NCBI GenBank assembly: GCA_025937235.1
Contig: JAICRU010000023.1
Span: forward strand, 1 to 39,571
Reading direction: 5' to 3'
DNA: 39,571 nucleotides
Source: Acidimicrobiia bacterium
GTDB lineage: Bacteria; Actinomycetota; Acidimicrobiia; Spongiisociales; ZC4RG35
Position numbers and translations under genes: made by a program. Every line of letters begins with the position of its first letter. Within the stretch, counting starts at the first letter, position 1. The notes under the pieces were generated by a model, which was not told the DNA's origin, searched no databases, and saw nothing but the letters and a program-made list of their open reading frames with translations. This document shows, one piece after another, positions 12,412-15,908 of the stretch.

Positions 12412-13767
12412 TTGGCGGACCTCCGCCGACTCCTCCACGAGGGTAAGCCGATCTTCGGCACCGATGGCGTCCGTGGCGTCGCCGGCTCCGAGCTCACCGC
12501 AGAGCTGGCTCTTGCCATCGGCCGGGCCGCCGGCTCCCACCTGCGTGGGGGCCCGGTGCTGATAGGGAGGGACACACGTCGTTCGGGGGAGATGTTGTCC
12601 TCGGCCCTGCAGTCGGGGTTTCAATCGGTGGGGATCGACACGGTCGACGTGGGGATCCTGCCCAGCGGCGGGATCAGCTATCTGACCTCGTCCTCCGGGG
12701 CGACAATGGGGGCGATCGTCTCCGCCTCCCACAACCCGGCAGACGACAACGGAATCAAGCTCCTTTCCTCCCGCGGCACCAAGCTGGCCGACGACGTGGA
12801 GCGTGAGCTCGAGGAGCGGTTACGAGCATCCGGTTCCCGGGCCAAGGTCGGTCCCGATGTGGGCACCCGCTTCATCGACGGGGATGCCCTCGAGCGGTAC
12901 GTCGACCATTTGGCATCGGTCTCCAGGTACAACCTGAGCGGGTTGGAGATCGCCCTCGACTGCGCTCATGGGGCGGCGTTCAAGGCGGCGCCGATGCTGT
13001 TCGAGAGACTCAAGGCCGACGTGGTGACCCATGCAGCCGCCCCCGATGGGACCAACATCAACGCCGGCTGGGGAGCCACTCATCCCGAACGGCTCGCCAC
13101 GGAGGCGGGCGGGCGCATCGGCCTGTCCTTCGATGGGGACGCCGACCGCCTCATCGCCATCGACGAGGATGGAAAGGTGGCCAACGGCGACGTGATCCTG
13201 GCCATCATCGCCCGGCACATGAAGACACAGGGCCAGCTGAAGAACAACAGGGTGGTCGCCACGGTCATGTCCAACCTGGGGTTTCGTAAGTCGATGGCCG
13301 AGGCCGGGATCGACCTCACGGAGACCAGGGTCGGCGACCGATACGTCCTGGAGGCGATGCAGGAGCAGAGGGCCATCGTGGGGGGCGAGCAATCGGGCCA
13401 CATCATCTTCCTCGACAAGGGATCCACCGGCGACGGGCTTCTGACTGCGGTCCGCCTTCTCGATGTGGTGGCCGGGACCGGCAAGGAGCTCCGTCGACTG
13501 CGCGCCGAGGCCATAACCGAGTATCCGCAGATCCTGCAGAACGTCCGGGTGGGTCGGGGTGTCAACCTCGACGACGCCGGGGCTGTTTGGGACGAGGTCC
13601 GGGCGGTCGAGCGCGAGCTGGGGGACGAGGGCAGGGTGCTGGTACGTGCCTCGGGCACGGAGCCGCTCATCCGGGTGATGGTGGAGGCCCCTTCCGAAGA
13701 GGCGGCGAGACGCTACGCTGATCGTCTGACGAGCATCACGCAGAGCTCGATGGGGAAGGAGGGATAA
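12412..13767 (+). CDS. glmM: Phosphoglucosamine mutase
   Basis: Interconverts glucosamine-6-phosphate and glucosamine-1-phosphate, the step after GlmS on the way to UDP-GlcNAc. 451 residues. The phosphorylated serine is Ser106 in SASHNPADDNG. The metal loop FDGDADR, the sugar-binding GGEQSGHII and the phosphate-binding RASGTEPLIRVM are all present. The N-terminus FGTDGVRGVAG is standard. The start is TTG at 12412, two bases after rpsI. It is separated from glmS by 314 bases containing a glmS ribozyme; no independent terminator is obvious after the stop. Confidence 0.97.
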   Translation: MADLRRLLHEGKPIFGTDGVRGVAGSELTAELALAIGRAAGSHLRGGPVLIGRDTRRSGEMLSSALQSGFQSVGIDTVDVGILPSGGISYLTSSSGATMGAIVSASHNPADDNGIKLLSSRGTKLADDVERELEERLRASGSRAKVGPDVGTRFIDGDALERYVDHLASVSRYNLSGLEIALDCAHGAAFKAAPMLFERLKADVVTHAAAPDGTNINAGWGATHPERLATEAGGRIGLSFDGDADRLIAIDEDGKVANGDVILAIIARHMKTQGQLKNNRVVATVMSNLGFRKSMAEAGIDLTETRVGDRYVLEAMQEQRAIVGGEQSGHIIFLDKGSTGDGLLTAVRLLDVVAGTGKELRRLRAEAITEYPQILQNVRVGRGVNLDDAGAVWDEVRAVERELGDEGRVLVRASGTEPLIRVMVEAPSEEAARRYADRLTSITQSSMGKEG

Positions 13768-13802
13768 CCGAACTCTATTGATTCGTGCGTGCGACAACCA
13801 AC

Positions 13803-13974
13803 AGCGCCTGGCCTCGGTTCATCGGGGGTCTGGGGGTCACCCCCCAGATTTCACACTCCACCGAGGTGACGAGGAGGAAGGTCATCGAAGTATTCGGCGG
13901 ATGCCTTCCCGGCCGGCTCAGGTCGTGAGGATGGGAGCAAAACCCGGGAGCGATCCCGGAACAGAGACCCACCC
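13803..13974 (+). ncRNA. glmS ribozyme: glmS ribozyme / riboswitch
   Basis: A self-cleaving RNA using glucosamine-6-phosphate as cofactor, upstream of glmS. The cleavage-site motif A|GCGCC places scission between 13803 and 13804. P1 is CCTCGGT (13812-13818) with ACCGAGG (13860-13866), capped by the CTGGGGG/CCCCCAG hairpin (13830-13847). The conserved TGACGAGG (13867-13874) follows. P2 is GGAAGG (13876-13881) with CCTTCC (13904-13909), enclosing the conserved ATCGA...TCGGCGGATG core. P3 is CGGCC GGCTCA GGTCG. P4 is GGATGGG with CCCACCC (13968-13974), enclosing GCAAAAC and the P4.1 stem CCGGGA GCGA TCCCGG. The order and conserved unpaired bases match the known ribozyme. It explains the long glmM-glmS gap. 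Confidence 0.93.
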
Positions 13975-14081
13975 ATGAGTGCCGATCATCGGCCCCCCGC
14001 ACGCAACGCTTGACGCAACTGGGTTGCGCAGTGCCGCTACGGCATCTGTTTGTCCCAATTACACGGAGAGAAGGAAGGGTT

Positions 14082-15908
14082 ATGTGCGGAATCGTTGGAT
14101 ATGTCGGTCCGAAGCCCGTGATCGATGTGCTGATGCCGGGATTGGCCCGGCTCGAGTACCGGGGTTATGACTCGGCAGGCGTTGCCCTCAACCATGGCGG
14201 GTCGCTCACCGTCCTGAAGCAGGCCGGTCGCATCGCCGACCTGCAGGGTCTGGTCGATCGGGAGGGCCCGGCCGAGGCCCACACCGGGATCGGGCACACC
14301 CGGTGGGCCACCCATGGCGCCCCCAACACCGGGAATGCCCACCCGCATATGGACTGCCGACGGGACGTCGTCGTGGTCCACAACGGGATCATCGAGAACT
14401 GGGTGGATCTCAAAGCGAAACTGGTCGAGAACGGTCACGACTTCGACAGCGACACCGACACCGAGGTCGTGGCGCACCTGATCGAGGAGATGGCCGATCT
14501 CCCGCTTGCCGACGCCGTGCGCAAGGTGATGAACCAGGCCGATGGGGCTCTGGCATTGGTAGTTATGAGGAAGTCCGAGCCGGACGTCCTGGTCGGGGCG
14601 CGGAGAGGCTCACCGTTGGTCGTGGGCCGTGGCAAGGGGGAGAACTTCCTCGCCTCGGACATCCCTGCCTTTCTCGAGCACACCCGTCACATGGTGATCG
14701 TGGAGGATGACCGAGTCGTGGAGATCCGGCCGGACGAGATCGTGCTCACCGATCTCGAGGGGAACAGCATGCCCCTCGATGAGAGGATGGTGGAGTGGGA
14801 CTTCGAGGCGGCGGAGAAGGGCGGCTTCGACACCTTCATGCTCAAGGAGATCTTCGAACAGCCCCATGCCATCGCCGACACCCTGGCCGGCCGGATCGAG
14901 TCCCCCGGAAGAGTCGTGCTCGACGAGCTGACCATCGACTCCGAGATCCTGCGTGAGGTCGACAAGGTGTTCGTGGTCGCGTGTGGCACCTCCTACCACG
15001 CGGCGATGATGGCCAAGTACGCCATCGAGCGTTGGGCGAGGCTCCCTGTCGAGATCGACATCGCCTCCGAGTTTCGATACCGCGACCCGGTGCTCGACCA
15101 CCGATCGCTCGTGATCGGCATCAGCCAATCGGGGGAGACCATCGACACGCTGGCCGCGGTGCGCTACGCCAGGGCGCAGGGTTCGGTCGTGATCGGTGTG
15201 TCCAACGTCGTGGAGTCGGCGCTGGCCCGTGAGTCCGATGCAGTGCTCTACACCAGGGCCGGCCCCGAGATCGGGGTGGCCGCCACCAAGACGTTCACAA
15301 CCCAGCTGGTGGCGATGCAGTTGCTCGGCCTCTACCTGGCCCAGGTGCGCGGTGCCCTGGATCCGGGTGCGATCGAGCTCCAGGTGAAGGAGCTGCTTCG
15401 CCTGCCCGATCAGGTCGAGGCCGTCCTGGCTCGTGCCGACGACGTCAAGGAGCTGACCTCGGCATGGGTGGACACCCGAGACTGGTTCTTCTTGGGCCGG
15501 TCCGGTGACTTCCCGGTAGCCATGGAAGGGGCGCTCAAGCTCAAGGAGATCGCCTACGTCCGTGCCGAGGGTTATGCGGCTGGGGAGATGAAGCACGGCC
15601 CGATAGCGCTCATCGAGCCCGGCGTGGTGGTGGTTGGTGTGGCCACCGATAGCCACGTACAGGCCAAGACACTCTCCAACATGGAGGAGATGAAGGCTCG
15701 AGGGGGCACCATCGTGCTCGTCGCCGAGGAGGGCGACGATGTCGGGCATGTCGCAGACCACGTGATCAGGGTTCCGTCTGGACCCGACCTGCTCTGCACA
15801 GTGACCGCGGTGGTCCCGCTCCAGCTCCTCGCCTACTACGTGGCGACGGCTCGGGGCATGGACGTGGACAAGCCGCGCAACTTGGCCAAGACTGTGACTG
15901 TCGAGTGA
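14082..15908 (+). CDS. glmS: Glutamine-fructose-6-phosphate aminotransferase
   Basis: Makes glucosamine-6-phosphate from fructose-6-phosphate and glutamine, the entry step to cell-wall amino sugars. 608 residues from ATG 14082. This start exposes the nucleophile Cys2 (MCGIVGYVG) after initiator removal, and AAGGAAGGG precedes it; the longer upstream frame is rejected. The glutaminase domain (about 1-240) contains GHTRWATHGAPN and HNGIIEN. Two SIS sugar-binding domains follow, with ACGTSYHA, ISQSGETIDT and the C-terminal KPRNLAKTVTVE. It is controlled in cis by the ribozyme 108 bases upstream. Confidence 0.98.
   Translation: MCGIVGYVGPKPVIDVLMPGLARLEYRGYDSAGVALNHGGSLTVLKQAGRIADLQGLVDREGPAEAHTGIGHTRWATHGAPNTGNAHPHMDCRRDVVVVHNGIIENWVDLKAKLVENGHDFDSDTDTEVVAHLIEEMADLPLADAVRKVMNQADGALALVVMRKSEPDVLVGARRGSPLVVGRGKGENFLASDIPAFLEHTRHMVIVEDDRVVEIRPDEIVLTDLEGNSMPLDERMVEWDFEAAEKGGFDTFMLKEIFEQPHAIADTLAGRIESPGRVVLDELTIDSEILREVDKVFVVACGTSYHAAMMAKYAIERWARLPVEIDIASEFRYRDPVLDHRSLVIGISQSGETIDTLAAVRYARAQGSVVIGVSNVVESALARESDAVLYTRAGPEIGVAATKTFTTQLVAMQLLGLYLAQVRGALDPGAIELQVKELLRLPDQVEAVLARADDVKELTSAWVDTRDWFFLGRSGDFPVAMEGALKLKEIAYVRAEGYAAGEMKHGPIALIEPGVVVVGVATDSHVQAKTLSNMEEMKARGGTIVLVAEEGDDVGHVADHVIRVPSGPDLLCTVTAVVPLQLLAYYVATARGMDVDKPRNLAKTVTVE

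Follow-up and report, generated by a model that had tools for sequence, protein, structure and literature searches.

The glmS ribozyme is a self-cutting RNA that shuts down an amino-sugar gene once its product is plentiful. The question raised by the locus studied here is whether the spacer between glmM and glmS in a member of the Acidimicrobiia holds a complete ribozyme of this kind and, if so, whether its presence there is as noteworthy as the initial annotation of the window (that is, the whole 39,571-nt stretch of DNA analysed) had taken it to be. All features described below lie on the forward strand.

A complete glmS ribozyme between glmM and glmS

The flanking genes were identified with NCBIfam models. 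glmM, encoding phosphoglucosamine mutase (12412-13767, with the TTG start as listed), matched TIGR01455 at 492.9 bits (cut-off 447.55) and is preceded by rplM and rpsI, while glmS, encoding a glutamine-fructose-6-phosphate transaminase of 608 amino acids (14082-15908), matched TIGR01135 at 796.1 bits (cut-off 418.05). The GlmS protein is 97% and 94% identical to those of the Acidimicrobiia genomes L032 and L033, respectively, which places the host in this class of Actinomycetota as an uncultured member. Between the two genes, giving the order glmM-ribozyme-glmS, the Rfam covariance model of the glmS ribozyme (RF00234) aligned over its whole length (model positions 1-167) to positions 13792-13984, with a score of 92.5 bits, well over the gathering threshold of 37, and an E-value of 2.3e-20. 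This search had been suggested as a check in the initial annotation, and its full-length match, together with the identity of the flanking genes, bears out the claim that a glmS ribozyme occupies an actinobacterial (Acidimicrobiia) glmM-glmS spacer. No RNA family besides the glmS ribozyme was found by the Rfam search of the window, and the glmS model detected one ribozyme copy in the 3.08 Mb genome. It is therefore almost certain, in our judgement, that 13792-13984 is a standard and complete glmS ribozyme-riboswitch, which by analogy with its family would cut in a glucosamine-6-phosphate (GlcN6P)-dependent manner and then be subject to RNase J decay.

Further downstream, two neighbouring hairpins, one of them terminator-like, are found at 14014-14047 between the ribozyme and glmS. 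A regulatory role for these hairpins was considered and rejected, as they are common to L032 only and lost in L033, with a fold z-score of -1.05.

Conservation of the cleavage site and catalytic core

The predicted cleavage site, A(-1)|G1 in the motif AGCGCC, falls at 13803|13804. The glmM stop codon ends at 13767, so that the cut would lie 36 bases beyond it, exactly as had been claimed, and 278 bases before the glmS ATG, which places the ribozyme within the glmS 5' leader. The sequence AGCGC is invariant in all 33 aligned relatives, and AGCGCC stands at the cleavage site in the actinobacterial loci inspected. The core sequence GACGAGG (13868-13874) is likewise invariant in 33/33 sequences, and its last residue, G13874, matches the catalytic guanine, G42 in Bacillus subtilis and G40 in Thermoanaerobacter tengcongensis, two ribozymes for which the roles of the core residues have been described (PMC11602151, PMC6154101). 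When the B. subtilis core residues were mapped by hand, G39, A40, G41 and G42 corresponded to 13871-13874, C54, G55 and A56 to 13886-13888, and G67 and A68 to 13900 and 13901, and every one of them was invariant or nearly so. In B. subtilis, certain residues hold the scissile phosphate and the cofactor in place (PMC11602151), and the counterparts of all of them are found in the window. Moreover, little or no variation is seen in AGCGC, GACGAGG, TCGA and most of TCGGCGGATG across Acidimicrobiia, a member of the Coriobacteriia and Pectinatus (Bacillota).

Helices, pseudoknots and tertiary contacts

The published helices were laid on the window and scored on an alignment of 33 relatives that had been built without reference to structure. 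Over all helices, 89.8% of the cells were paired, versus 30-51% when the partners were slid by 1-3 columns; 31 of the 43 pairs showed changes on both sides, and none of 500 shuffles matched the observed values. The P1 helix (13811-13818 with 13860-13867), which together with its cap spans 13811-13867 and folds as one unit (z -3.5), had both-side changes in 7 of its 8 pairs, with 93.7% of cells paired; it had been described as a 7-bp stem, a count that becomes eight when the terminal G-U pair is included. P2 (13876-13880 with 13905-13909), which encloses ATCGA...TTCGGCGGATG within 13876-13909, showed both-side changes in all five pairs (98.8% paired), and in P3 (13910-13914 with 13921-13925, spanning 13910-13925) 97.6% of the cells were paired. 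In the 3' domain (13929-13974; z -4.1), formed by P4 (13929-13935 with 13968-13974) and P4.1 (13944-13949 with 13954-13959), changes on both sides were seen in 12 of 13 pairs among the 33 sequences. The perfect P4.1 stem noted earlier was confirmed, with six pairs capped by the GNRA loop GCGA at 13950-13953, but the accompanying description of P4 needs correction in that the helix contains one A-C mismatch (13931/13972); the B. subtilis ribozyme tolerates most P4 substitutions (PMC11602151).

Less variation was seen in P2.1 and P2.2. P2.1 (13870-13872 paired with 13885-13887) is invariant, and in P2.2, whose 5' strand at 13805-13808 pairs with 13896-13899, all cells were paired and variation was confined to a single sequence, giving one compensated pair (n=33). 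Such near-invariance is expected, since the bases of both helices help to form the active site (PMC7125110).

All three pseudoknot helices can be formed by the window sequence. Because P3.1 (13916-13920 with 13976-13980, spanning 13916-13980) aligned poorly, it was tested by exchanging 3' tails between species, a procedure that is independent of how the 3' strand is aligned. Loops combined with their own tails scored 12.0, versus 9.1 (sd 0.33) for swapped tails, and none of 500 swaps equalled the native combination. As this pseudoknot uses 13976-13980, the ribozyme extends past position 13974, where the initial annotation had ended it, and the model match reaches 13984. Furthermore, G13865, the counterpart of B. 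subtilis G33, is invariant (n=33) and is predicted to be the receptor in P1 on which the GNRA loop L4 would dock.

With the type examples of RF00234, from B. subtilis, B. anthracis and T. tengcongensis, the window thus shares the core sequence, the double pseudoknot, the P3/P3.1 pseudoknot, the cleavage motif, a P4 with a GNRA tetraloop and an A-rich internal loop, and the place upstream of glmS. It differs from them in its actinobacterial host, in the one P4 mismatch and in having a P1 cap that carries a palindromic repeat specific to its lineage. From the ribozymes of other Acidimicrobiia, Coriobacteriia and further Actinomycetota families, to which it is alike in sequence and structure, it is set apart by this repeat, which among those aligned occurs in the window's species alone; the order glmM-ribozyme-glmS is common to the window and most ribozymes of its clade.

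A dispersed palindrome in the P1 cap

The palindromic repeat is the sole unusual detail of the ribozyme. The P1 cap holds a 12-bp hairpin (13825-13852) that matches a dispersed, REP-like palindrome, CGGGGGTCTGGGGGTCACCCCCCAGATTT, located at about 13823-13851. When copies of the palindrome CGGGGGTCTGGGGGTCRCCCCCCAGATTT were searched for in seven genomes, allowing up to three mismatches, 8 were found in this genome, 13 in the nearest genome and 1 in a second congener, with none in the four other genera and none in a reversed control. The palindrome at 13823-13851 is thus confined to the window's genus among the seven genomes searched. L032 and L033, the closest relatives, have ribozymes with no palindrome in the P1 cap, and the length of this cap is variable among the aligned relatives. 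On its simplest reading, the cap repeat looks like a recent REP-like insertion at a loop where an extra hairpin would be harmless. Other actinobacterial glmS ribozymes with long matches of about 190-240 bases were seen in L115 and L116, and in the families f77 and f82 of the phylum search, which suggests large peripheral-loop insertions there too.

A palindrome of this kind could be of more consequence. It is unlikely that a mobile REP-like element has entered a working ribozyme and that its 12-bp hairpin affects how the RNA folds, how it is regulated or how stable the mRNA is once cleaved. A more drastic possibility is that the palindrome has recently disabled the ribozyme, leaving it degenerate and the window's species without glmS feedback. 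The lack of the insertion in both congeners would agree with this, as would the strength of the hairpins, which might misdirect folding. However, the core and tertiary-contact positions are all intact, P1 is extended and unbroken, with a predicted fold that would retain P1 and place the hairpin beyond it, and the relatives' P1 cap varies freely in length, so we consider recent loss of function very improbable. Still less credible, to the point of being negligible, is the proposal that the region is a chance or purely structural array of hairpins, for instance one that terminates transcription or stabilises the mRNA, with no more than a resemblance to a ribozyme. The terminator-like hairpin at 14031-14045, shortly before glmS, might be cited in its favour, but that hairpin is shared with L032 only and absent from L033, and hence not conserved, while the full-model E-value of 2e-20 and the covariation in all main helices speak for a glmS ribozyme.

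Distribution and inheritance

The initial annotation had considered a glmS ribozyme outside the Firmicutes notable, an assessment that the wider searches do not uphold. When 395 genomes of the class were sampled, RF00234 matched 162 of them, from 62 of 184 genera, and almost all genomes of the window's order were among the positives. For the phylum Actinomycetota, 396 genomes were sampled and 75 matched, from 41 of 237 genera; several families outside Acidimicrobiia were positive. One named example is the Coriobacteriia genome L056. Finding the ribozyme outside Firmicutes is therefore unsurprising, given how common it is in both samples. In the positive loci inspected, the ribozyme lies upstream of glmS and, in most of the window's clade, downstream of glmM; no ribozyme was detected in L060, L061, L062, L063, L066, L067 and L075, which are Acidimicrobiales or other actinobacterial loci with glmM upstream. 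A literature search that did not include the main distribution surveys (McCown 2011, 2012) returned no paper naming the glmS ribozyme together with Acidimicrobiia or their relatives.

In a GlmS tree, the window falls among ribozyme-bearing Acidimicrobiia, with the Bacillota ribozyme clade well separate; for two members of the tree, L048 and L051, Rfam detected a ribozyme contrary to their pattern-based labels. This topology led us to reject a recent transfer from Firmicutes to an actinobacterium, and suggests that the ribozyme was inherited vertically in the window's lineage.

Proposed mode of action

The ribozyme would be transcribed on the glmS mRNA, probably as glmM-glmS read-through. Co-transcription of the two genes is likely because the spacer is short and has no conserved promoter-like block. 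We also considered, and rejected, a promoter located after glmM and ahead of the ribozyme: a consensus scan of this spacer, which is blind to other promoter types, found none, and comparison of the spacers revealed no clearly conserved block. The RNA would fold into the double-pseudoknot core, braced by P3, P3.1 and P4, and abundant GlcN6P would bind as a catalytic cofactor, leading to a cut between A13803 and G13804. For B. subtilis it is established that GlcN6P induces cleavage and that RNase J1 then degrades the cleaved mRNA (PMC3997798). By analogy, the 3' piece carrying glmS would start with a 5'-OH and be degraded by RNase J, resulting in less GlmS and thus in product feedback on amino-sugar synthesis. 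Cleavage, ligand, co-transcription and decay are what we infer for this locus, cleavage and decay from membership in the family. The earlier proposal that the cut would part the two messages and leave only glmS open to decay is plausible, as an RNase J gene is encoded in the genome (495.2 bits, cut-off 400); the glmM-bearing 5' fragment, however, would end in sequence with no evident protective hairpin, so that glmS might not be the only message exposed to decay.

The ribozyme of the window is an ordinary representative of a known family, and its lineage is one in which such ribozymes are common. Its P1 cap appears to accept the insertion of a genomic repeat, and the find opens no new mechanism. 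More broadly, it adds to a view of glmS ribozymes as no Firmicutes speciality but a widespread means of control in several lineages of actinobacteria, where they appear to be inherited vertically.
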